A DNA stretch of 64,000 bases from Trichococcus palustris (GTDB taxonomy: Bacteria; Bacillota; Bacilli; Lactobacillales; Aerococcaceae), in the NCBI RefSeq assembly GCF_900114465.1, contig NZ_FOTD01000010.1, positions 1-64,000 on the forward strand, read 5' to 3'. Position 1 is the first letter of the stretch. Each line of letters starts with the position of its first letter. The position numbers and the translations under genes are program-made. The notes beneath the pieces are model-generated. The model was not told the DNA's origin. It saw only the letters and a program-made list of their open reading frames with translations, and did no database searches. This document shows, one piece after another, positions 978 through 11,273 of the stretch.

Positions 978-1241
978 ACCATTCATAAAGTCATGCCAAG
1001 GAATAAAAAGGGAATCGCCAAAGATAGTTCCGGGTGATTCTTTTTAACGAAGGCAAACTGATCACTCAGTGGTCGGCGTTTTTTGTGATAGAAGGCGGAG
1101 CCCCTTATCGATACCGTCTTCTTCCTTTTCGACCGTGGTTTTCTCAAGGGACTGAAGCTGGTCTATTTTCTGCTGGTTACGTGGCTGTACAACTTGACGG
1201 TCAATACGATGGACTACAACTTGGCGTCCGTCATCGGCATT
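978..1241. pseudogene. Chimeric gene debris resembling the maeR 3' end joined to the malF 3' end
   Basis: Three stretches align with loci elsewhere in this window. 979-1010 resembles 6223-6256 (just downstream of the response-regulator gene). 1086-1098 and 1098-1176 resemble 6287-6299 and 6481-6556 (the 3' part of that gene) with about 180 bp missing between. 1173-1240 resembles 20409-20476 (3' part of malF) with 6 mismatches in 68 positions. The maeR-like pieces are in minus-strand sense and the malF-like piece in plus-strand sense. Two short hairpins with T-runs lie at about 1012-1047 and 1058-1086. The patch encodes nothing intact. Confidence 0.8.
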
Positions 1242-1827
1242 TCATGCTATTGAGAATCATATCAATATCGTGTACAGCATATTCGCTAACCGAATATTGT
1301 CCGTTTCCCATTGCCCATTCCAAAAGCAGACCCCTGGAGGTTCGCAGAATAAGCGAAGAAATTTCGCCTGCAGAATAGCCGGTCATTATTTCTTTGTCAT
1401 CTATTGCATTTTGAACCAATTTCCTTAAGCAAGTATGAAATGCACGAGTACTTTCTGTAACGTATTTACCTTCGTTTTTGACCTGTACTCTCAGCATTTG
1501 TGCATAAATTTTCGCTCCAAGTACCTCTGCAACGTTTGTCTGTTTATAGATCAGATATTTGATAGCCTCTGTATTTTTTTCGAAATTATTCAAAACGAAC
1601 TCTGTATTTACGTAGTTATCGAACGTTGGGTAGGATTCCATCAATATTTCCTCTTTTGAGGAGTAATACCTATAAAAATTTCCTACTGCAATATTCAAAG
1701 ATTGACATATATCGGTAGTGGAAACTTTTTCATAGTCATTGCTTTGAAATAATTCCAGGGCTTTTTCTTTGATTCTATTTTTAGTTTCAATAGCCTGCAA
1801 TTGTCTTGTCGTGAATTTCTTTTCCAT
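1231..1827 (-). CDS. TetR/AcrR-family transcriptional regulator
   Basis: The N-terminus carries a TetR-type helix-turn-helix: VSTTDICQSLNIAVGNFYRYY at about residues 35-55, where the YRYYSSKEE segment is diagnostic. The rest is a helical ligand-binding domain with no recognisable ligand signature. Length is about 198 residues from the ATG at 1827; the ATG at 1839 abuts the AGAAGGG element and is unlikely. The last few codons (CR-stop) fall inside the malF-like debris, so the natural C-terminus may have been replaced. It points away from the flavoenzyme/CoA-transferase operon at 2524 across about 700 bp, and is a candidate regulator of it. Confidence 0.8.
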   Translation of the reverse strand: MEKKFTTRQLQAIETKNRIKEKALELFQSNDYEKVSTTDICQSLNIAVGNFYRYYSSKEEILMESYPTFDNYVNTEFVLNNFEKNTEAIKYLIYKQTNVAEVLGAKIYAQMLRVQVKNEGKYVTESTRAFHTCLRKLVQNAIDDKEIMTGYSAGEISSLILRTSRGLLLEWAMGNGQYSVSEYAVHDIDMILNSMKCR

Positions 1828-1839
1828 TTTTTCCAACAT

Positions 1840-2523
1840 CCCTTCTATAAAAAGTAGCGTAGGGTTCGAAAATCAGCAATATTTCTGATTATCGATGATA
1901 CGCGACATAAGTGTTGTAATAAAAATAAACAATCTTCATTCTGGGCCAAAACAAAAAATCCTTTACAATGGTTGATAAGATGACTTACCCAAGACCGCTA
2001 TAAAGGACTCAATTCAGGGATAAGCATAAACGAAAAACATCATTTTGTAAACGGATAGCGCCGGTCTTTTCTGATAACCCACTACTTCACCTATACCCAA
2101 CTCTATGACCGGATAAATGAAGCATTCGATTATAACAATTTTATGTATTGACTTTAGCAAATAGAATCGTTAAAATTATTTTAAGTGAAAAAAGTTCAAT
2201 GAAAAATTTTCATCTAAAGGGGTCATGAGGAGGCGCGAGGGGAAAACTAAAATGATGGTAGATATTTTGTTGCAAGCACATTGTTTTAGGATAAATGTAA
2301 ACGCAAACATCCTCTTGGTGAGTAAGGTTATGTAATGAAAATGAAATTTGAAAATGGGTAAAGGAACTTCAACACTTAATAATGCACAGTTTTTCAGAGA
2401 ACGATAAATGAAGCAGGTTGGATTTTAAAACATATTTTATTGATTTGTTATGTGATTAACATAACAAAATCTGTTTTCGTCATAAGATAAAAAATATTTG
2501 AAAATTCAAAGGAGGAATTGTTA
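1840..2523. other. Long intergenic region between TetR gene and flavoenzyme operon
   Basis: AT-rich and without a credible gene. A short open frame around 2065-2150, reading LITHYFTYTQLYDRINEAF, looks coding-like but has no start and could be debris. The only clear signals are the promoter at 2148 and the AAAGGAGG before 2524. Confidence 0.5.
2148..2176 (+). promoter_or_regulatory. Sigma-A promoter upstream of the flavoenzyme operon
   Basis: TTGACT, a 17-base spacer, then TAAAAT. It would give a leader of about 340 bases before the start at 2524. Confidence 0.6.
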
Positions 2524-3462
2524 ATGGGTAGAGTTACGGAGATGTTAGGGATAAAATATCCGATTTTTTGTGGGGCTATGGGAGGCATTTCTAAGCCTGA
2601 ATTGGTGATTGCAGTATCCGAAGCCGGTGGTATGGGGATTTTGGCAACAGCTGGAATAAACCCTGAAGCAGTGCGTCAAGACGTTCGAAAAATTAAAGAA
2701 AAAACAAATAAACCTTTTGGTGCAAATATTGCGATCATCTCTGGAAATGTAGAAGCGGTGTTAACCGTTCTTTTAGAAGAAGGGGTGAAATTCTTTACGA
2801 CTGGCGCAGGTAATCCAATTCCACTGATCGCGCCTATTCATAAAGCGGGAGGAAAAATTTTCCCTGTCGTGCCATCTGCCCGTGTAGCTAAAAAGATGGA
2901 AGAAAGTGGGGCAGACGGAGTAGTGGTTGAAGGAACAGAAGCTGGTGGACATGTAGGGGAAGCGACCACGATGACCTTAACACGACAAGCGGCTGAGATC
3001 GTCGATATTCCGGTTATTTGTGCAGGCGGGATTGCGGATGGACACGGTATCGTGGCGGCATATGCGCTAGGTGCAGACGGGGTTCAGTTGGGGACAATTT
3101 TTGTAGCATCAAAAGAAGCGCCCATTCACGATAATTATAAACAAGCCATTCTCAATGCGACAGATACGTCGACAATGGTTTCAGGTCGTCGTGCAGGCGG
3201 ACCAATTCGTATCGAGCGCAATTTAGCTTCACGTAAACATATTGAAATTGACCAAGATTTGAAGGCGGGCGTGAAGGAAATCGAAGGCTATACTATTCCA
3301 TCATTGATTCGTGCCGCCAATGAAGGTGATGTGGAAAACGAAATTGTCACATATGGGCAAATCGCTGGATTAATTCATGAAATCAAACCTGTCAAACAAA
3401 TTATTGAAGATTTGTTCAGTGAAGCAGAAGAAGTGGTAAAAAACTTAGATATCAATAGATAG
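2524..3462 (+). CDS. Nitronate monooxygenase / FabK-like FMN-dependent TIM-barrel enzyme
   Basis: A 312-residue protein of the nitronate monooxygenase/enoyl-ACP reductase II family. Family signatures are visible: PIFCGAMGGISKPELV near the N-terminus, a glycine-rich AGGMGILATAG, the EGTEAGGHVGE motif at about residues 138-148, and the phosphate-binding segment ICAGGIADGHGIVAAYALGADG at about 173-194, which binds FMN in relatives. The start at 2524 has an ideal AAAGGAGG eight bases upstream. Sequence alone does not separate nitronate oxidation from NAD(P)H-dependent enoyl-thioester reduction. It is not in a fatty-acid gene cluster but leads an operon with two FMN reductases and a CoA-transferase, which I infer favours an enoyl-CoA or related thioester substrate. 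Confidence 0.8.
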   Translation: MGRVTEMLGIKYPIFCGAMGGISKPELVIAVSEAGGMGILATAGINPEAVRQDVRKIKEKTNKPFGANIAIISGNVEAVLTVLLEEGVKFFTTGAGNPIPLIAPIHKAGGKIFPVVPSARVAKKMEESGADGVVVEGTEAGGHVGEATTMTLTRQAAEIVDIPVICAGGIADGHGIVAAYALGADGVQLGTIFVASKEAPIHDNYKQAILNATDTSTMVSGRRAGGPIRIERNLASRKHIEIDQDLKAGVKEIEGYTIPSLIRAANEGDVENEIVTYGQIAGLIHEIKPVKQIIEDLFSEAEEVVKNLDINR

Positions 3463-3538
3463 AATATAACCCCAAAAGCCATATTTTTGCATATGTGTGG
3501 GGAGTAAGGTTTCTCTGGGGAAGGAAAGGGAAGATTTT

Positions 3539-4147
3539 ATGAAAAACATTGTAGCGATTGTCGGAACAAATTCAAAAAAGTCAACCAATCGTCAATTATT
3601 GCAATATATTCAACGGCACTTTGCGGAGTCAGCCAATATTGAATTAATTGAAATAAATGATGTTCCATTATTCACTAAATTTAATCGTGGTAAATATCCG
3701 GAATCCGTTCTGACAATTTCACAGAAAATTGAAGCAGCAGACGGAGTGATTATTTCGTCGCCAGAATATGATCATGCTATAACAGCCTCGTTAATGAATT
3801 TATTGGAGTGGCTGTCTCTTGGCTTGTATTCTTTAGTGGATAAACCAGTCATGCTAACTGGAGCATCTTATGGGCGATTAGGTTCTTTAAGGGCTCAAGG
3901 ACATTTGCGTCAAATTTTGGATGCACCTGAATTGAAAGCGAGAGTCATGCCGAATTCAGAGTTTTTGGTCGGTAATTCTTTAGGCGCTTTTGATAAAAAT
4001 GGCGATTTAAAAGATCCCGCATTGGTCAAACAGTTGAATGCCTTGTTTGAAGACTTTATCTATTTTGCTGAGATCACAAATAAGCTTTCAAAAGCACGCC
4101 AAGGCAATATAGAAGCTGCTAAGGCATTTTCTTGGAATAAAGAATAG
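3539..4147 (+). CDS. NADPH-dependent FMN reductase family protein (paralogue 1)
   Basis: A 202-residue flavodoxin-fold protein. The N-terminal VAIVGTNSKKSTNRQLL matches the FMN phosphate-binding loop. The SSPEYDHAITASLMNLLEW segment near residues 75-93 corresponds to the family's SPEYN-G/A motif that contacts the flavin ring. Related enzymes use NAD(P)H to reduce FMN or a bound substrate. The ATG at 3539 follows GGAAGGAAAGGG; an upstream GTG at 3497 lacks a ribosome site. It lies 76 bases after the flavoenzyme and 13 before a close paralogue, and lacks that paralogue's C-terminal SGAS tail. Confidence 0.85.
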   Translation: MKNIVAIVGTNSKKSTNRQLLQYIQRHFAESANIELIEINDVPLFTKFNRGKYPESVLTISQKIEAADGVIISSPEYDHAITASLMNLLEWLSLGLYSLVDKPVMLTGASYGRLGSLRAQGHLRQILDAPELKARVMPNSEFLVGNSLGAFDKNGDLKDPALVKQLNALFEDFIYFAEITNKLSKARQGNIEAAKAFSWNKE

Positions 4148-4160
4148 AAAGGAGAATCAG

Positions 4161-4808
4161 ATGATGAAATTTTTAGGAATAGTTGGTTCAACATCGGATA
4201 TTTCGTTTAACCGTATTTTATTGAAATATATTCAGCGGCGTTTCGACGATAAATTTGAACTTCAGCTGGTAGAAGTCAAGGATTTTCCTTTGTTTAATCA
4301 GGATATCCCATTGGAGGAAGTGCCTTTGGTTTCTGCAGTAGCGCGCAAGATTGAAGCGGCTGATGGCATTATTATTGCTACTCCAGAACATAATCATACG
4401 ATTTCAGCTGCATTGAAATCGTTTTTGGAATGGATGTCGTCAGATGTGCATCCTTTTGATGGCAAGCCTGTGATGATAGTCGGAGCCTCTTACTTTGCTT
4501 ATGGATCTTCCAGAGCACAGTTACATCTGCGTCAAGTTCTTGATGCACCTGGAGTCAATGCTGTTGTGCTGCCAGGCAATGAATTCTTGCTCGGTGATGT
4601 AAAAAAAGCTTTTGATGATTTTAATAACCTAAAAGACCCGGGAACCGTCAAGTTTTTAGAAAATTGTCTCGATAATTTTGTTCGTTTTGTAAAAATCATT
4701 AATCAAGTGGCGGATAAAAATTATGTAGAAAAAGATGTATCTGTTTGGGATGAAGAACTGCCTAATATTGAAGTAGATGTTATTTCAGGAGCTTCAGAAT
4801 CTTATTAG
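4161..4808 (+). CDS. NADPH-dependent FMN reductase family protein (paralogue 2) with flavinylation-like C-terminal tail
   Basis: 215 residues, clearly homologous to the preceding gene along its whole fold (GIVGSTSDISFNRILLKY, then ATPEHNHTISAALKSFLEW). It differs in an extra C-terminal tail ending D206-V-I-S-G-A-S212-E-S-Y. This matches the D-x-x-[ST]-G-A-[ST] signature on which ApbE-type FMN transferases attach FMN through a phosphoester, known from NqrC, RnfG and FMN-bind domain proteins. If modified, the protein would carry a covalent FMN besides its bound flavin and act as an electron shuttle. No apbE is visible in the window. The start has AAAGGAG upstream; the ATG at 4164 is also possible. 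Confidence 0.85.
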   Translation: MMKFLGIVGSTSDISFNRILLKYIQRRFDDKFELQLVEVKDFPLFNQDIPLEEVPLVSAVARKIEAADGIIIATPEHNHTISAALKSFLEWMSSDVHPFDGKPVMIVGASYFAYGSSRAQLHLRQVLDAPGVNAVVLPGNEFLLGDVKKAFDDFNNLKDPGTVKFLENCLDNFVRFVKIINQVADKNYVEKDVSVWDEELPNIEVDVISGASESY

Positions 4809-4844
4809 ATTAAATGATAACTTGGAAAATGAAAGGATGAAGAA

Positions 4845-6065
4845 ATGATGGAAAGAACATTTTTAACCCCTGAATTTGGTCCTCTATCCGGAATTCGTGT
4901 GCTGGGAAGCGGGAGTGCAGTGGCTATGCCGTCTGCCGGGAATATGCTAGCTGACCTCGGAGCTGAATTTATCCATATTGAGCGTCCAGGTAAAGGTGAT
5001 GTGACCACGCGTACATTATCGGATATTTGGCATCAAGAAGCTCGAAATCGCTTAAGCTTAACATTAGAATTGGACTTGCATATACCAGAAATGAAAGAGA
5101 CTTTCATGGAACTGATCAAAAAATCTGATGTTTTCATGGAAAATCAAGTATGGTTGGATAAATTTGGCATTTATGATGAAGAGCTATTGGAAGCCAATCC
5201 TAAATTAGTGATCGCGCATGTGTCCGGGTTCGGATCAGAGGCATTCGGCGGTGCTGAAGGATTTACAGGACGTGCGTCATATGACATCATCGGCCAAGCT
5301 TTTTCAGGATACTTAAGCTTAAACGGTAATGAAGAAAAGCCTTATGTTGAAAAGCCATACACGAATGATTTCGTATCAGCGTTATGGGTTGCCTTTGGTG
5401 TAGTATCTGCCTTGCGCCATGTTGAGAAAACGGGTAAAGGTCAAATTATTGATGTTTCCCAATATGAGGCGATGGCACGAATTACTGCCGGTGAATACGT
5501 TAAAGCGCAAAGAACAGGCAAAAACCCAACGCGCAGTTTCGAGAACGATTCCATTCAACCGTTTGGTTTATACCGTGCAAAAGGAAATGCCTTTGTAGCA
5601 ATAGCGTCAGCCAGTCCAGGGGTTTATAACCGAGTGCTTGAGGCTGTAAGCTTTGATCAGGAGGCTTATCCCTTCAAAGAAGTTGCGATGGGAGCAACGA
5701 ACTTACAATCAGAAAAAGGACAAGAGTTTGATGCTAATTTCAGAAAATGGTGTCTGGATCATACTGCAGATGAAATTGACGAAATCATGTCCCGATATCG
5801 TGTGCCTTGTTCAAAAGTGAATACGATGTTGGACGTTCTTGAGCATCCTCATTTTGAAGCACGGGATAACTGGGTAGAGTACGAAAACAAGCAGACTGGG
5901 TTTAAAGCGAAGAGTTTCGGAGTTTTCCCTAAATTTAGCGAAACACCTGGTAAAGTATGGCGCGGAGCTCCGGATGTCGGTGATGATACTGAGAGAATTC
6001 TTAAAGACATTCTCGGCTTTTCCGATGAAAAAATCCAAACATTAAAAGATAAAAACTTGATTTAA
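4845..6065 (+). CDS. CaiB/BaiF (class III) CoA-transferase
   Basis: 406 residues, the usual length. The N-terminal GPLSGIRVLGSGSAVAMPSA then ADLGAEFIHIERPGKGD is the classic class III opening that binds CoA. D147 in SYDIIGQAFSGYLSLNG is at the position of the catalytic aspartate that forms the acyl-aspartyl and CoA-thioester intermediates. Family members move CoA between carboxylic acids (carnitine/crotonobetaine, bile acids, phenyl-lactate/cinnamate, oxalate). Last gene of the four-gene operon, with a strong terminator at 6152. Its substrate cannot be read from sequence; the neighbours suggest that the activated acid is then reduced or oxidised by the flavoenzymes. Confidence 0.85.
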   Translation: MMERTFLTPEFGPLSGIRVLGSGSAVAMPSAGNMLADLGAEFIHIERPGKGDVTTRTLSDIWHQEARNRLSLTLELDLHIPEMKETFMELIKKSDVFMENQVWLDKFGIYDEELLEANPKLVIAHVSGFGSEAFGGAEGFTGRASYDIIGQAFSGYLSLNGNEEKPYVEKPYTNDFVSALWVAFGVVSALRHVEKTGKGQIIDVSQYEAMARITAGEYVKAQRTGKNPTRSFENDSIQPFGLYRAKGNAFVAIASASPGVYNRVLEAVSFDQEAYPFKEVAMGATNLQSEKGQEFDANFRKWCLDHTADEIDEIMSRYRVPCSKVNTMLDVLEHPHFEARDNWVEYENKQTGFKAKSFGVFPKFSETPGKVWRGAPDVGDDTERILKDILGFSDEKIQTLKDKNLI

Positions 6066-6151
6066 TCAAATCAGCGAAACAGTTTGAAAGTTAAACAATG
6101 CAGATTGCATTGTAGCCTGGCTTCCTGAAACGCCTGACTAGAATAAGCCCT

Positions 6152-6195
6152 AAAAGAAGGAACAAAGCGTATTGAATAGCTTTGTTCCTTCTTTT
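6152..6195 (+). terminator. Rho-independent terminator of the CoA-transferase operon
   Basis: A perfect 17-bp stem, AAAAGAAGGAACAAAGC paired with GCTTTGTTCCTTCTTTT, with a 10-base loop. Confidence 0.85.
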
Positions 6196-6254
6196 GACGT
6201 GCACTCGTATTCTCAAGCCTAAAACCATTCCGGAAGGTCATGCCAGGGAATAAG

Positions 6255-6282
6255 AAAAGCTGAACGAACCCGTTCAGCTTTT
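6255..6282 (-). terminator. Terminator downstream of maeR
   Basis: A 12-bp perfect stem, AAAAGCTGAACG with CGTTCAGCTTTT, and a 4-base loop, just past the stop codon of the response-regulator gene; symmetrical and usable from either side. Confidence 0.75.
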
Positions 6283-6957
6283 CTTGCGATAGAAGGCGGT
6301 CGGGCGGCCGACAGTGCCATATTCCAGCCGCATCTCGATGACCTGCTTGCTCTCCAGGTAATGCAGATATTTACGGACCGAAACGTGGGAAAGGTTGGTC
6401 AGGTTCGTGATATCGCTTACGGTAAAATCACCCGCCTGCTGGTTGATGCATTCCAGAATCAACGCCAGCGTAGAAGGGGTGAGCCCCTTATCGATAGCGT
6501 CTTCTTCCTTTTCGATCGTTGTTTCTTCAAGGGACTGAAGCTGGTCTATCTGCTGTTGGGTAAGGGGACTTCCGGAGTGTAGCAGTTCCTGCCGCTGCAG
6601 AAACAAAGCGATGCTCTTCTGGAATCGTTTGAACTGGAAAGGCTTCAGTATGTAATCGACAATCCCGCACTGCAAACCGATCCGGATGGCCTCCTGTTCA
6701 CCGGCGGCGGTGATCATGATCAGATCGGCGGGATATTCCCTTTTCCTCAGCGCCTTGATCAGGTCCAAACCGGAATTTCCCTTAATCGTGATATCGACCA
6801 AAAGTAAATCATAGGTATATTTGCTGGTCAGGCGAATGGCTTCATCAAAGCTGTCGCACGTCCCTGACACGACGAAGCCCGGTATTTTTTCCAGATAACG
6901 CCGATTGATCGACAGCACCATCGGATCATCCTCTACGATCAAAACATGGTAGACCAT
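6274..6957 (-). CDS. maeR: Response regulator of the CitB/DcuR (MaeR) type
   Basis: 227 residues. The receiver domain (about 1-120) has the acidic pair D10-D11, phosphoacceptor D55 in LLLVDITIKG, and the KP segment of the last beta strand (DYILKPFQF). After a glutamate-rich linker comes a C-terminal winged helix (SDITNLTNLSHVSVRKYLHYL) of the CitB/DpiA class. The start at 6957 shares one base with the kinase stop (TGATG), implying translational coupling; the longer frame from 7005 only reads into the kinase gene. Divergent from a 2-hydroxycarboxylate transporter and malic enzyme, it fits MaeR of lactic acid bacteria, which activates malate use via malic enzyme. Confidence 0.85.
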   Translation of the reverse strand: MVYHVLIVEDDPMVLSINRRYLEKIPGFVVSGTCDSFDEAIRLTSKYTYDLLLVDITIKGNSGLDLIKALRKREYPADLIMITAAGEQEAIRIGLQCGIVDYILKPFQFKRFQKSIALFLQRQELLHSGSPLTQQQIDQLQSLEETTIEKEEDAIDKGLTPSTLALILECINQQAGDFTVSDITNLTNLSHVSVRKYLHYLESKQVIEMRLEYGTVGRPTAFYRKKS

Positions 6958-8507
6958 CAGTTTTCCTCCTTTCGATATTCTGTTTTTAGACAAACTGAAA
7001 GCCAATGATCCCTGGTTTCGATGTCCATCTGGCCGTTCACTTTTTTCAACAATTGCACAATGAAGGGGGCGTTCAATTCTGCCGTCAGTTGCTCTTTCAA
7101 TGCGTTATCCAGCTGCAATTCATAGGTGGTCTCCAGTCGGTCGTCCCAAAAACCGAAGTGGATCTGCAAGCCATTTCCCAGATCATTGTCCAGAATGAAT
7201 TGGTTTAAGGAGCGGACAATGTTGATCCAGCACTGGACGGCCGTATTGTCTGTTGTCGGCGGTATATCGGGATAGACCTCGATCATAAACGGAACATTTT
7301 TTTCAGTGAATTTGCTGCGTTCGCCGATCAGGAAACCGGCGATGACGGGATTCTTGACTAGGTAGATCATCCGTTGGGAAAATTCCTGTGCCGGCTTCAA
7401 AATTTTACTGAGGTACACTTTCAATTCATCGTATTCTTCCAAATCGGTCAAACCATAGATCACATGCAGCTTGTTCAAAAAATCATGCGACTGGGTTTGC
7501 AGCGTGGTGGCGTAGGTTGCCGTGTTGAAAAGTTGATCCGTCAGCAAATAGAGTTCCGTAGCGTCACGCATGATGATGATCTGACCGATGATCTTCTTGG
7601 AGACGATGATGGGCGCGACGGAGAGCAAGTAATCCACGCCGTTTTGATGATAGATTTTATCGATTGTCTTATTCTTCTCATTCAACTCGCCCAGTTCCTT
7701 CGCTGTTGGCAAAAAGACTTTTATGGAAGTTCCCTCGATTTCTTTATCGGGAGAGAGGGAGTGGAACATTTTTTTTGCCTCGAGGTTGGATAATGTGATC
7801 TTATTGTTTTTGTCGGTAACGATGATGGCATCTTTTGTGTTGTCCAGCATCGCGTTGCGTTCCTCCAGCAGCCTGGCTATTTCGGTAGGCTCCAAATTAT
7901 ACATTTGGTTTTTGAGGTTGAAAGCAGTGAAGATCGCGGCGGCCACACCGAACAGCAAGCTGACCGCGAAGCTGACGGAGAAGGGCTGCATCGTTTTTTT
8001 CGCGATCGAAGCGAGCGTTGTCGTCTTGATGCCTATCGCGACGACGCCAATTTCCACGTTTTCCGCATTGAAAACCGGGACGAAGGCGCGAAGCGATTGT
8101 CCCAGCGTGCCTTGCGCTATTGAGGTTGTCTCTTGTCCCAAAAGGGCGGCTTCTTCATCGCCGCCCTGGAAAGGGGCGTTGATTTTTTCCGGATCGGGAT
8201 GGGTCAAGCGGATGCGGTCCATCGTCATGACCACGACAAAGTCCAATTGATATGTTTCGTTTATCTGATTGGCATATTCCTGTATTTCTGGATTGGTGGC
8301 ACCGGCGCTGAGAGCGGCGGAAACGATCGGCTGTTTGGCCACAATCTCTGCGATGGTGAGGAGTTGCTCTTCTTCCTGTTTTTGTGTTGTCTCTAGGATG
8401 CGATTCGTCAGCAACAGGTACAAAATGCTGACCGTCAAAGCCACGGTGATCAAAACCATCAACGTGAGCTTCACCCATAAACGCTGATTTTTCCATTTTT
8501 TGTTCAT
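6957..8507 (-). CDS. maeK: CitA/DcuS-type sensor histidine kinase (MaeK-like) with an atypical ATPase domain
   Basis: 516 residues. TM1 at about 12-33, an extracytoplasmic Cache/PAS-like sensor at about 35-170, TM2 at about 176-196, a cytoplasmic PAS domain at about 220-320, then the phosphoacceptor helix QSHDFLNKLHVIYGL with H341. The sensor matches C4-dicarboxylate/citrate kinases and would detect malate outside the cell. The C-terminal part (about 400-516) has the right length for an HATPase domain, but I do not see the usual N-box asparagine motif or the D-x-G-x-G boxes; only scattered similarity remains. The ATG at 8507 is preceded by AAGGGGG. It forms an operon with maeR. Confidence 0.8.
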   Translation of the reverse strand: MNKKWKNQRLWVKLTLMVLITVALTVSILYLLLTNRILETTQKQEEEQLLTIAEIVAKQPIVSAALSAGATNPEIQEYANQINETYQLDFVVVMTMDRIRLTHPDPEKINAPFQGGDEEAALLGQETTSIAQGTLGQSLRAFVPVFNAENVEIGVVAIGIKTTTLASIAKKTMQPFSVSFAVSLLFGVAAAIFTAFNLKNQMYNLEPTEIARLLEERNAMLDNTKDAIIVTDKNNKITLSNLEAKKMFHSLSPDKEIEGTSIKVFLPTAKELGELNEKNKTIDKIYHQNGVDYLLSVAPIIVSKKIIGQIIIMRDATELYLLTDQLFNTATYATTLQTQSHDFLNKLHVIYGLTDLEEYDELKVYLSKILKPAQEFSQRMIYLVKNPVIAGFLIGERSKFTEKNVPFMIEVYPDIPPTTDNTAVQCWINIVRSLNQFILDNDLGNGLQIHFGFWDDRLETTYELQLDNALKEQLTAELNAPFIVQLLKKVNGQMDIETRDHWLSVCLKTEYRKEEN

Positions 8508-8570
8508 ATACTAAATCCCCTTCTTGCTTGCATAGCCATTATATCATGATGAAAAGTAGGCGTTCTCAAT

Positions 8571-8602
8571 TTAATTAATTTAATAACACTTAAATTAATT
8601 AA
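8571..8602. promoter_or_regulatory. Perfect AT-rich inverted repeat in the maeK-maeP intergenic region
   Basis: TTAATTAATTTAA and its exact complement TTAAATTAATTAA are separated by six bases, midway between the divergent maeKR and transporter genes. It is a natural candidate for MaeR binding; published MaeR sites are, from memory, AT-rich repeats of the TTATT(A/T)AA kind. Confidence 0.6.
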
Positions 8603-8649
8603 ATAATCTATTTTAAATCTGTAAGCGGTAGCATAATGAAAACAGGTTA

Positions 8650-8664
8650 AAGAAAGCGCTTCAT
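8650..8664 (+). promoter_or_regulatory. Probable cre (CcpA) site before the malate transporter
   Basis: AAGAAAGCGCTTCAT resembles the catabolite-response consensus TGWAANCGNTNWCA. It lies about 35 bases ahead of the start codon, downstream of a possible CATAAT -10 at about 8632, a position that fits repression by glucose. Confidence 0.45.
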
Positions 8665-8698
8665 AATCGTAGTTTTAATTAAAAGGAGGAGAAAGACA

Positions 8699-10048
8699 GT
8701 GAAAAATACGTCTAAAGAAATGGAACTTGAAAAGCTGCCGGGCATTGCGGAGTTGACAGTTTTTGATAGGTTCAAGGGTATGAAGGTAGGGGCTATTCCG
8801 TTGCCGACCTACTTAGTGATGTCAGCCATTATTTTAGCTTCTGCTTATCTGGGCGAACTGCCCGTCAATATGTTGGGCGGCTTCGCGGTCATTTTAAGTT
8901 TGGGTTGGCTGTTGGGAGGGATCGGTGCTAGCATACCGGGCTTGAAGAACTTCGGGGGTTCGGCCATCCTGTCGCTGATGGTGCCATCGATTATGGTATT
9001 CATGAATATATTCAACCAAAATACGCTGGATGCGGCGAACATGCTGATGAAGCAAGCTAATTTTTTATACTTCTATATTGCCTGTCTTGTCTGCGGCAGT
9101 ATTTTAGGGATGCACCGCAAGATTTTGGTGCAAGGGCTGATGCGGATGATCATTCCGATGGCTGTCGCCATGATAGCCGCTTTGATTGTAGGGACGTCGG
9201 TCGGTACTCTATTGGGGCTAGGCTTTAAGCATACTTTGTTCTACATCGTGACCCCGATTATCGCTGGGGGAATCGGCGAAGGCATATTGCCGCTATCGCT
9301 TGGCTACAGTGCCATTACAGGCGTCGCAAGTGGAGATCTGGTAGGGCAATTGATTCCGGCAACCATCATCGGTAACTTCTTCGCCATCATCTGTTCAGGT
9401 GTTTTGAATCGTTTAGGCGAAAAATATCCTGAGAAAAGCGGAAAAGGCCAACTGGTTAAATTAAGCGGCAATGGTGATGATACGATGGCCGATGCCATGA
9501 AAGAAGACAACAGTCCCTTGGATATCAAATTGATGGGAGCCGGCGTTTTGACTGCCTGCACACTCTTCATAGCCGGCGGATTATTGCAAAGGCTTACAGG
9601 GTTCCCTGGTCCGGTTCTGATGATCCTGCTCGCCGCAGCCATCAAATATTTGAGCTTGCTGCCGAAAGACGTGGAAAAAGGATCGAAGCAGTTGTATAAA
9701 TTCATTTCAGGCAATTTCACCTTCCCATTGATGGTCGGCTTGGGCTTGCTGTACATCCCGTTGAAAGACGTTGTCGGCATGCTATCTTGGCAATATTTTG
9801 TAGTCGTGATTTCAGTCGTCTTGACGGTCGTTTTGGCAGGCTACTTTGTCGGCGGCAAAATGAACATGAACCCAATCGAAGCAGCCATCGTTACTTCGTG
9901 CCAAAGCGGCATGGGTGGAACAGGCGATGTTGCCATCCTGTCAGCTTCCAATCGTATGAATTTGATGCCTTTTGCACAAGTCGCTACACGCCTAGGCGGG
10001 GCCATTACGGTTATTTCAATGACAGCTTTACTGAGATTCCTTTTTTAA
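8699..10048 (+). CDS. maeP: 2-hydroxycarboxylate transporter (MaeP/CitP/CimH family), probable malate carrier
   Basis: 449 residues with about 11 hydrophobic segments. The two family re-entrant loops are present: GGIGEGILPLSLGY near residue 180 and SGMGGTGDVAILSAS near residue 405, followed by the conserved arginine in SNRMNLMPFAQVATRLGG that binds the substrate carboxylate in CitP and CimH. It imports malate or citrate with sodium or protons, or by exchange. It starts with GTG at 8699, eight bases after AAAGGAGG. Malic enzyme follows 50 bases later in the same orientation, so malate is the expected substrate. Confidence 0.85.
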   Translation: MKNTSKEMELEKLPGIAELTVFDRFKGMKVGAIPLPTYLVMSAIILASAYLGELPVNMLGGFAVILSLGWLLGGIGASIPGLKNFGGSAILSLMVPSIMVFMNIFNQNTLDAANMLMKQANFLYFYIACLVCGSILGMHRKILVQGLMRMIIPMAVAMIAALIVGTSVGTLLGLGFKHTLFYIVTPIIAGGIGEGILPLSLGYSAITGVASGDLVGQLIPATIIGNFFAIICSGVLNRLGEKYPEKSGKGQLVKLSGNGDDTMADAMKEDNSPLDIKLMGAGVLTACTLFIAGGLLQRLTGFPGPVLMILLAAAIKYLSLLPKDVEKGSKQLYKFISGNFTFPLMVGLGLLYIPLKDVVGMLSWQYFVVVISVVLTVVLAGYFVGGKMNMNPIEAAIVTSCQSGMGGTGDVAILSASNRMNLMPFAQVATRLGGAITVISMTALLRFLF

Positions 10049-10100
10049 TCTAACATAAAAACAAAAAATCTAATGACAAACGAAAGAGAGCGTGTTCAAA

Positions 10101-11273
10101 ATGACAGACGTAAATGAAAAAGCATTGGCAATCAGCAAAAAATTAGGCGGTAAATTAGAAGTCATCTCAAAAGTTCCGATCGAAACGATGGAAGATCTAA
10201 GCATCGCCTACACTCCGGGAGTTGCTGCGGTATGCATGGCGATCGCCAACAATAAAGAAGCCGTATATGAATACACGACAAAAAGAAACCTGGTTGCCGT
10301 CGTAACGGACGGATCGGCCGTCTTGGGATTAGGGAACATCGGGCCAGAAGCTGCCATTCCAGTAATGGAAGGAAAAGCCGCGCTGTTCAAACGCTTCGGA
10401 AATGTCGATGCCGTGCCGATTTCATTGGATACGCAGGACGTTGAAGAAATCATCTCCCATGTAGTAGCCATCGCACCTTCTTTCGGCGGCATCAACCTGG
10501 AAGACATCAGTGCACCGAGATGTTTTGAAATCGAAAGAAGACTAAAGGAACTGTTGGATATTCCGGTATTCCACGATGACCAACACGGCACTGCGATCAT
10601 CGTGCTTGCAGCCCTATACAATGCCTTGCGCTTGACCGGCAAAAAAATAAACGAAATCCAAGTGGTCGTCAATGGCGGCGGAGCGGCCGGCATGGCAATC
10701 AGCGAAATGTTCCTGTCTGCAGGCGTCAAAAATTTGATGGTCGTAGATAAAAGCGGTATCATTTCCGAAACGGATCCAGAATTAGTCGAACGACATACCG
10801 AAATTGCCAAGGTGACAAACAAAGCGCACAGAACCGGCACATTGAAGGATGCTGTGGTAGGAGCCGATGTATTTGTGGGCGTATCCGCACCGGGCGTCTT
10901 GAAGAAGGAATGGATTTCATCCATGAATGAAAGACCGATCATCTTTGCGATGGCGAACCCGACCCCTGAAATCTTCCCCGACGAAGCAAAAGCGGGTGGA
11001 GCGTACATTGTCGGTACCGGCCGCAGCGACTTCCCGAATCAGATCAACAATGTCCTGGCGTTCCCCGGCATATTCAGAGGAGCATTGGATGCCCGTGCGA
11101 AAGACATCACGATCGAAATGCAAATTGCGGCTGCGCAAGGGATCGCAAGCATCGTCAGCGATGCAGACTTGAACGTGGATAACATCATGCCGGATGTCTT
11201 TACTCCGGGAGTGGCTGATGTTGTGGCAGCCAGCGTGAAAAATGCAGTGAAGAAAGAACCGGTCCTTGTATAA
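10101..11273 (+). CDS. maeE: NAD-dependent malic enzyme (malate to pyruvate + CO2)
   Basis: 390 residues, the short bacterial type. Visible signatures: Y37 in SIAYTPGVAAVC (catalytic tyrosine), K92 in VMEGKAALFKRFG (catalytic lysine), the metal-binding HDDQHGTAII, and a nucleotide-binding VVNGGGAAGMAISEM. Cytosolic; converts malate to pyruvate with reduction of NAD. The ATG at 10101 is chosen over the GTG at 10092 because AAAGAGAG sits at proper distance from it. Gene order maeK-maeR divergent from maeP-maeE parallels the Lactobacillus casei malate locus. A strong terminator follows at 11287. Confidence 0.92.
   Translation: MTDVNEKALAISKKLGGKLEVISKVPIETMEDLSIAYTPGVAAVCMAIANNKEAVYEYTTKRNLVAVVTDGSAVLGLGNIGPEAAIPVMEGKAALFKRFGNVDAVPISLDTQDVEEIISHVVAIAPSFGGINLEDISAPRCFEIERRLKELLDIPVFHDDQHGTAIIVLAALYNALRLTGKKINEIQVVVNGGGAAGMAISEMFLSAGVKNLMVVDKSGIISETDPELVERHTEIAKVTNKAHRTGTLKDAVVGADVFVGVSAPGVLKKEWISSMNERPIIFAMANPTPEIFPDEAKAGGAYIVGTGRSDFPNQINNVLAFPGIFRGALDARAKDITIEMQIAAAQGIASIVSDADLNVDNIMPDVFTPGVADVVAASVKNAVKKEPVLV

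Follow-up and report, generated by a model that had tools for sequence, protein, structure and literature searches.

We examined a four-gene operon of Trichococcus palustris (order Lactobacillales, family Aerococcaceae; genome of 2.93 Mb) that may encode a CoA-linked enoate reductase working without electron-transfer flavoprotein (ETF). The operon lies in a window of 64,000 nucleotides, which corresponds to bases 1-64,000 of contig C31 (99,439 bases). Four complete, intact open reading frames (ORFs) share one strand at 2524-6065 and are separated by gaps of 76, 13, and 36 bp. They encode a FabK/NMO-superfamily FMN flavoprotein of 312 residues (2524-3462, forward strand, as are the other three), which we propose to be an enoyl-CoA reductase; FR1, an FMN_red protein of 202 residues (3539-4147; PF03358, 120 bits) and the proposed partner of FR2; FR2, an FMN_red protein of 215 residues (4161-4808; PF03358, 129.5 bits); and a CaiB-like family III CoA-transferase of 406 residues (4845-6065). 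FR1 most likely starts at ATG 3539 rather than at the upstream GTG 3497. An earlier sequence-only reading of this DNA had described four closely spaced genes in the same direction and had named these families, and our gene calls and domain matches agree with it on both points.

The FabK-like protein matches PF03060 NMO at 201.3 bits (cut-off, 28), which places it at superfamily level only, as the FabK of the same genome matches PF03060 too. Its best NCBIfam model is TIGR03151 (FabK), on which its 340.4 bits fall under the curated cut-off of 453.1; the other FabK gene of the genome, on contig C24, scores 490.8 bits, above that cut-off. Because this second gene sits in a run that by eye resembles a fatty-acid synthesis cluster, the FabK-like copy, 41% identical to it, is free for another task. 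The AlphaFold model of the FabK-like protein (a single chain, as are all models used here) has a mean predicted local distance difference test (pLDDT) score of 89.9. Its best Foldseek match is T. maritima FabK (TM-score, 0.94), ranks 1 to 15 are occupied by FabK entries and T. maritima TM0800, and the nearest solved relatives by sequence are also FabK enzymes. As in FabK, the fold is an FMN TIM barrel with a GGH histidine, here H143 (2950-2952), which is invariant in 13 aligned sequences.

Relatives with 71 to 78% identity form a clade; among 395 genomes sampled from the order, five besides our own have a member, as does Aerococcus tenax. The motifs CGAMGG and EIVTYGQ set this clade apart from the other aligned FabK-type sequences; the C of CGAMGG was dropped as a telltale by itself, given that T. 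maritima FabK has M there. In A. tenax and in one sampled Aerococcus genome (G058), whose FabK-like proteins are near-identical, the gene order is crotonase, FabK-like, CoA-transferase, and in another (G055) the FabK-like gene adjoins a divergent trans-2-enoyl-CoA reductase gene. More distant homologues lie, as judged by eye, among beta-oxidation and polyhydroxyalkanoate genes (G153 and G200) or beside a family I CoA-transferase-like gene and an MFS transporter (G155 and G079). Similarly, a second FabK-like gene of T. palustris itself, on contig C8 (L126 5674-9518), clusters with a Pfam-confirmed family I CoA-transferase and an MFS transporter, with an FMN_red gene of a different kind about 3 kb away. 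Neighbors in three further genomes (G026, G034, and G015) are uninformative. The informative neighbors are CoA-thioester genes, and no nitro-compound gene was recognized among them, which ties the barrel to CoA-thioesters rather than to nitro compounds. A phmmer search found no FR1 or FR2 homologues near nine FabK-like loci, a result that leaves room for FMN_red or flavodoxin-like proteins of other kinds.

FR2 ends in DVISGASESY, in which D206-V-I-S-G-A-S212 (4776-4796, forward strand) forms an ApbE-type flavinylation motif with S212 as the presumed acceptor. FR2 thus joins an FMN_red domain to a flavinylation motif in a C-terminal tail, and its model has a pLDDT below 50 over residues 188 to 215, as expected for a flexible tether. 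Among 1474 distinct ORFs of at least 150 residues from the fetched loci, a set enriched in FR2 loci, the pattern D-x-x-[ST]-G-A-[ST] occurs anywhere in 36 and within the last 15 residues in 17, all of them FR2-type; it arose in 6 of 300,000 random 15-mers of FR2 composition. We had taken the residue after the motif as the flavin acceptor and replaced it by the S/T of GA[S/T], a better candidate because the tails of relatives end SGASN or SGASAH. FR1 ends in AFSW, similar to the F-x-W with which many other FR1 proteins end. A published study reports ApbE flavinylation of FMN_red C-terminal tails in Bacillota and treats flavinylation mainly as extracytosolic (PMC11334425).

Within Lactobacillales, FR1-FR2 pairs are found repeatedly, in most cases next to ApbE. 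At E 1e-45, FR2 has matches in 215 of the 395 genomes of the order, FR1-type proteins possibly among them, with homologues of 54 to 62% identity among the matches listed; FR1 at the same limit was found in 2 of 348 phylum genomes, our own and one of the same order. In the 29 best-scoring FR2 loci outside the window (L140-L168, some of them near-copies from related genomes), FR1 is always adjacent, a PAS region always follows the FMN_red domain, and ApbE lies in the short flanks of 22. The tails of these relatives carry about two to four motif-like repeats, that of L166 being the most divergent. Seven further FR1-FR2 contexts comprise three FAD_binding_2 fusions (L181, L182, and L183), a protein with three PAS stretches (L180), and three short FR2 proteins (L177, L178, and L179). 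L177 lies beside ApbE and ends DDVASASVDE; L178 and L179 lack a tail motif, which shows that not every FR2 protein has one. One of these loci (L181 4948-12470) holds in a row ApbE, a LysR-like gene, FR1, an FMN_red/FAD_binding_2-type fusion, an MFS-like transporter, and a short FR2-like protein, likely an enoate reductase with its transporter.

T. palustris itself has four ApbE matches, two of which adjoin paralogous FR1-FR2 pairs. On contig C15, ApbE occurs with a LysR-like gene and with FR1, which precedes an 806-residue FMN_red-FMN_bind-FAD_binding_2 fusion with DIISGASVT; on contig C14 (L092 8613-11460), ApbE accompanies FR1 and an FMN_red-PAS_10 protein whose tail is repeated and looser. 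The N termini of both ApbE proteins show no obvious signal peptide by eye.

The last gene product belongs to family III (PF02515 CoA_transf_3, 287.2 bits), with CaiB (1xk6 and relatives) as its best matches in the PDB. On the CaiB model NF002914, it scores 272.1 bits, under the curated cut-off of 413. Its catalytic Asp, D175 (5367-5369), aligns with the residue that is Ala in variant 1xvu, and all 52 aligned sequences, that of the window among them, have Asp at this position. A GTDB scan that took one genome per species (84,980 species) yielded 343 related CoA-transferase loci, and the best 80 of the 343, many with short flanks, were examined. Among the 42 closest (L011-L052, many from metagenome-assembled genomes), 20 have a strict same-strand operon of acyl-CoA dehydrogenase (ACAD), EtfB, EtfA, and CoA-transferase. 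A looser count of ACAD and ETF within 5 kb gives 22 of 42, adding L016 and L039, with weaker or opposite-strand ETF genes; nine more have ACAD without the full ETF pair, and 11 have none of the three genes, partly because of contig ends. ACAD with ETF was absent from the other 38 of the best 80 loci (35 to 39% identity). The strict operon is present in Enterococcus florum and E. pallens, which belong to the same order, and is accompanied there by a divergent AraC-type regulator. A quick maximum-likelihood tree groups the CoA-transferase of the window with the two Aerococcaceae homologues (Shimodaira-Hasegawa-like approximate likelihood ratio test [SH-aLRT], 94) within a clade of 31 rows (SH-aLRT, 96), of which 16 have ACAD-ETF nearby. 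A separate observation is a Dehalococcoidia contig with four tandem family III CoA-transferase-like genes (L054 3872-9220).

The operon itself contains neither ACAD nor EtfBA genes. Across the whole genome (completeness, 100), neither ETF (PF01012) nor the ACAD C-terminal domain (PF00441) was matched; in control genomes, ETF was detected in 10 of 14 and ACAD in 9 of 14, with Lactococcus lactis negative for both. These findings are most simply explained by replacement of the ACAD-EtfBA part in this lineage.

The sequence-only reading had made its proposal depend on the conservation of the four-family set in other genomes, and we found the set in no other genome searched. These searches covered sampled species genomes in overlapping samples. 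The CoA-transferase had three matches among 100 genomes, our own included, and the four-gene set occurred only in our own; the 395 genomes of the order gave the same three matches. No FabK-like or FR homologue was found in the examined flanks of any of the best 80 CoA-transferase loci. The FabK-like protein had 10 matches in the 395 genomes, its own included; of the other nine, none had FR1 or FR2 homologues nearby and one had the CoA-transferase. Among 348 genomes of the class, at a stricter limit, it matched only itself. At E 1e-60, the CoA-transferase was not found in 12 other sampled genomes of the genus (for two of these, completeness is just 51% and 63%). Plasmid records held no four-gene set, and a PHROGs search gave no useful match. 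The pieces do recur: crotonase-FabK-like-CoA-transferase in Aerococcus, and FR1-FR2 with PAS or with a fumarate-reductase-like flavoprotein. Searches of open-licence literature found no paper that treats FabK together with CoA-transferase, enoyl-CoA, or flavin reductase, apart from one on FabX; titles listed for flavinylation, FMN_red, fumarate reductase, and lactic acid bacteria combined include none that describes the four-gene set, which is no proof of its absence from print.

Our preferred reading, to which we give roughly even weight, is that the operon carries out NAD(P)H-driven, CoA-linked reduction of an enoate without ETF, the FabK-like protein replacing the dehydrogenase and FR1-FR2 replacing EtfBA. 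The CoA-transferase would move CoA from the product acyl-CoA onto the incoming unsaturated acid, an activation that would therefore cost no ATP, and the FMN barrel would reduce the resulting enoyl-CoA to acyl-CoA. FR1-FR2 would take electrons from NAD(P)H. One of the ApbE enzymes of the cell, acting in trans, may attach FMN covalently near the C terminus of FR2, and this tethered FMN would hand electrons to the flavin of the FabK-like protein. The net effect would be that fermentative NADH is reoxidized on an external or amino-acid-derived enoate. The transfer from FR2 to the FabK-like protein is the weakest step, suggested by operon position and by the FR1-FR2 pairs that lie beside other reductases. 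More doubtfully, we suggest that this is an undescribed ETF-independent enoyl-CoA reductase, in which a FabK-like barrel is fed by an FMN_red heterodimer with a swinging tethered FMN in the role of EtfAB and is joined to a family III CoA-transferase. On this bolder reading, FR1-FR2 would serve Lactobacillales as a portable module for NAD(P)H input, feeding three or more outlets: PAS proteins, flavoproteins of the fumarate-reductase-like kind, and FabK-like CoA-ester reductases.

The sequence-only reading had supposed that an acid is activated as a CoA ester and then serves as electron acceptor, an outline that gains support from the ACAD-EtfBA context of the CoA-transferase relatives and from the CoA-thioester genes beside FabK-like relatives. 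It also had the FMN reductases supply reduced flavin; a supply of free reduced flavin is probably not their role, as FR2 bears a flavin-tethering motif. Its observation holds apart from the promoter discussed below and its interpretation is partly supported, being right in outline; it overlooked the flavinylation motif, the ACAD-ETF context, and a TetR gene and a palindrome upstream. Once the tether motif and the ACAD-ETF relatives are taken into account, what looked like an odd assortment of enzymes becomes a specific, testable proposal.

Several observations weigh against the proposal. Joint function rests on one operon, since the set occurs in no other genome searched, and the operon has no transporter or dehydratase gene that would point to a substrate. 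Contig C31 carries none of the four ApbE matches. In the FabK-like model, loop 140-143, including the GGH histidine, has a pLDDT below 50. The CoA-transferase sits on a long branch (1.08) whose placement is uncertain, and no starred branch encloses it within a small group, so a change of substrate is possible. Absence of ETF and ACAD is perhaps nothing unusual in the order, as the control L. lactis lacks both. Further, contig C7 has a gene (L129 12197-13393) similar by eye to the trans-2-enoyl-CoA reductase of L131, and the cell may thus reduce enoyl-CoA by a second route. FabK enzymes use NAD(P)H directly, and structure 4iql was solved with NADPH and FMN; FR1-FR2 may therefore not be needed. 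This last point leads to a serious rival, though in our judgment a rather unlikely one, in which the FabK-like protein and the CoA-transferase form a reductase system that draws electrons straight from NAD(P)H, with FR1 and FR2 as hitch-hiking general flavin or quinone reductases. The Aerococcus version, which has no FR genes beside its crotonase, FabK-like, and CoA-transferase genes, fits this rival, as do the FR1-FR2 pairs elsewhere in the genome, which are independent modules. However, FR1 and FR2 are embedded between the two other genes with gaps of 13 to 76 bp, and FR2 keeps its tail motif despite having no PAS region of the kind found in all 29 relatives.

The remaining alternatives change the chemistry or deny a shared function. 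An oxidizing system, acyl-CoA to enoyl-CoA in acid catabolism, would resemble Helicobacter pylori FabX, a dehydrogenase/isomerase of the same fold (PMC8626469), and a crotonase gene adjoins the Aerococcus version. FabX is distant, however (Foldseek ranks 36 to 40, 23 to 24% identity), and the window operon has no crotonase; the potentials given in PMC6384274, near 0 mV for the enoyl-CoA couple and near -280 mV for NAD+, favor the reducing direction, and we regard this alternative as improbable. Chance assembly of the four genes, recent and in one lineage, is a still poorer candidate. It would account for the single occurrence and the long CoA-transferase branch, and a transposase-like ORF lies 2 kb from the operon (3-395, open at the contig start, similar by eye to a transposase C-terminal part); the four genes are nonetheless intact and tightly ordered, with conserved catalytic residues and motif. 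Lastly, the FabK-like protein could be a nitronate monooxygenase that removes a toxic nitro-acid, for instance 3-nitropropionate, or a PA1024-type NADH:quinone reductase, to which the flavin reductases would supply flavin. The Pfam family is named NMO, relatives carry the annotation nitronate monooxygenase, and PA1024 (6e2a, titled NADH:quinone reductase) comes next after the FabK entries in the fold comparison, at ranks 16 and 17. Entries titled nitronate monooxygenase begin only at rank 25, behind the FabK block, and the informative neighborhoods described above speak for CoA-thioesters; we judge this alternative very improbable. The nitro-acid substrate of the sequence-only reading is likewise unsupported, the protein being nearer to FabK, by sequence and by fold, than to any titled nitronate monooxygenase.

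The flanks of the operon supply candidate control elements. A TetR-family regulator gene (1231-1839, reverse strand; PF00440 TetR_N, 40 bits) is divergent from the operon and is a candidate local regulator. The compared loci have no homologue of it (phmmer, 1e-6; tblastn, 1e-15), so its link to the system is one of position only, and we dropped it as a conserved part. A perfect palindrome, TTTGTTATGT-gatta-ACATAACAAA (2444-2468), ends 55 bp before the FabK-like gene and is a candidate operator. Allowing up to three mismatches, the window holds a single copy of it, and in shuffles of the intergenic region, perfect arms of at least 10 with a spacer of at most 12 appeared in 13 of 500. The upstream promoter that had been claimed is not established: a scan of 1000-8000 gave 19 sites against 14.5 (standard deviation, 4.2) in shuffles, and about 350 bp separate the sole 10-of-12 site (2148-2176) from the operon downstream of it. 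As for the terminator described as perfect, the 17-bp inverted repeat at 6152-6195 (forward strand) is indeed perfect and a probable terminator; its loop is 10 nucleotides, the T tract after it is short, and a terminator scan that allows loops of at most 8 nucleotides omitted it.

Downstream, DcuSR/MalKR-like two-component genes, a 2HCT citrate-type symporter, and malic enzyme (6274-11273) look like an ordinary malate or citrate fermentation cluster, another pathway than that of the operon. The genes scanned between 12470 and 42182 include amylase-family enzymes, a sugar-binding protein, GH4, GH65, and phosphotransferase system genes and mark a sugar-use region.

CoA-linked enoate reduction by anaerobes is known from ACAD/ETF systems, and the proposed system, if real, would achieve the same with non-homologous parts. 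It would explain how enoates can serve as electron sinks in bacteria that have no ETF, and it would identify an electron acceptor for flavinylated FMN_red proteins. It would also advise caution with the annotation nitronate monooxygenase for such FabK-like genes.

Among known systems, the ApbE-flavinylated FMN_red proteins of Bacillota (PMC11334425) share with FR2 the FMN_red domain and a C-terminal motif tail; FR2 differs in having no ApbE on its contig and no PAS region and in its link to a FabK-like protein and a CoA-transferase. The FabK-like protein has the fold and GGH histidine of FabK (enoyl-ACP reductase II) and 41% identity to the genome's own copy, but it scores under the family cut-off, belongs to the separate CGAMGG/EIVTYGQ clade, and lies outside the fatty-acid cluster. 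CaiB offers the closest solved structures to the CoA-transferase and the same catalytic Asp, whereas the score of 272 bits is below the cut-off of 413 and no other cai-type genes were recognized in the operon. The pair on contig C15, FR1 with the FMN_red-FMN_bind-FAD_binding_2 fusion, has the same input pair with a flavinylation motif and is enoate-reductase-like, the kind to which lactobacillar Hcr-type enzymes belong; its outlet is a FAD_binding_2 flavoprotein, in contrast to the FabK-like barrel and CoA-transferase of the window. A further comparison is with operons of CoA-transferase, ACAD, and EtfBA, such as Fld/Acd of Clostridium sporogenes and Car of Acetobacterium woodii. In Clostridioides difficile, the hadAIBC-acdB-etfBA operon couples CoA transfer to enoyl-CoA reduction via ACAD and ETF (PMC6384274). 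The window has a FabK-like barrel and two FMN_red proteins in place of ACAD and ETF and, having no ETF, no known route to electron bifurcation; it shares with these operons CoA transfer and, as proposed here, flavin-dependent enoyl-CoA reduction, and 20 of the 42 closest relatives of its CoA-transferase lie in operons of ACAD, EtfB, EtfA, and CoA-transferase.

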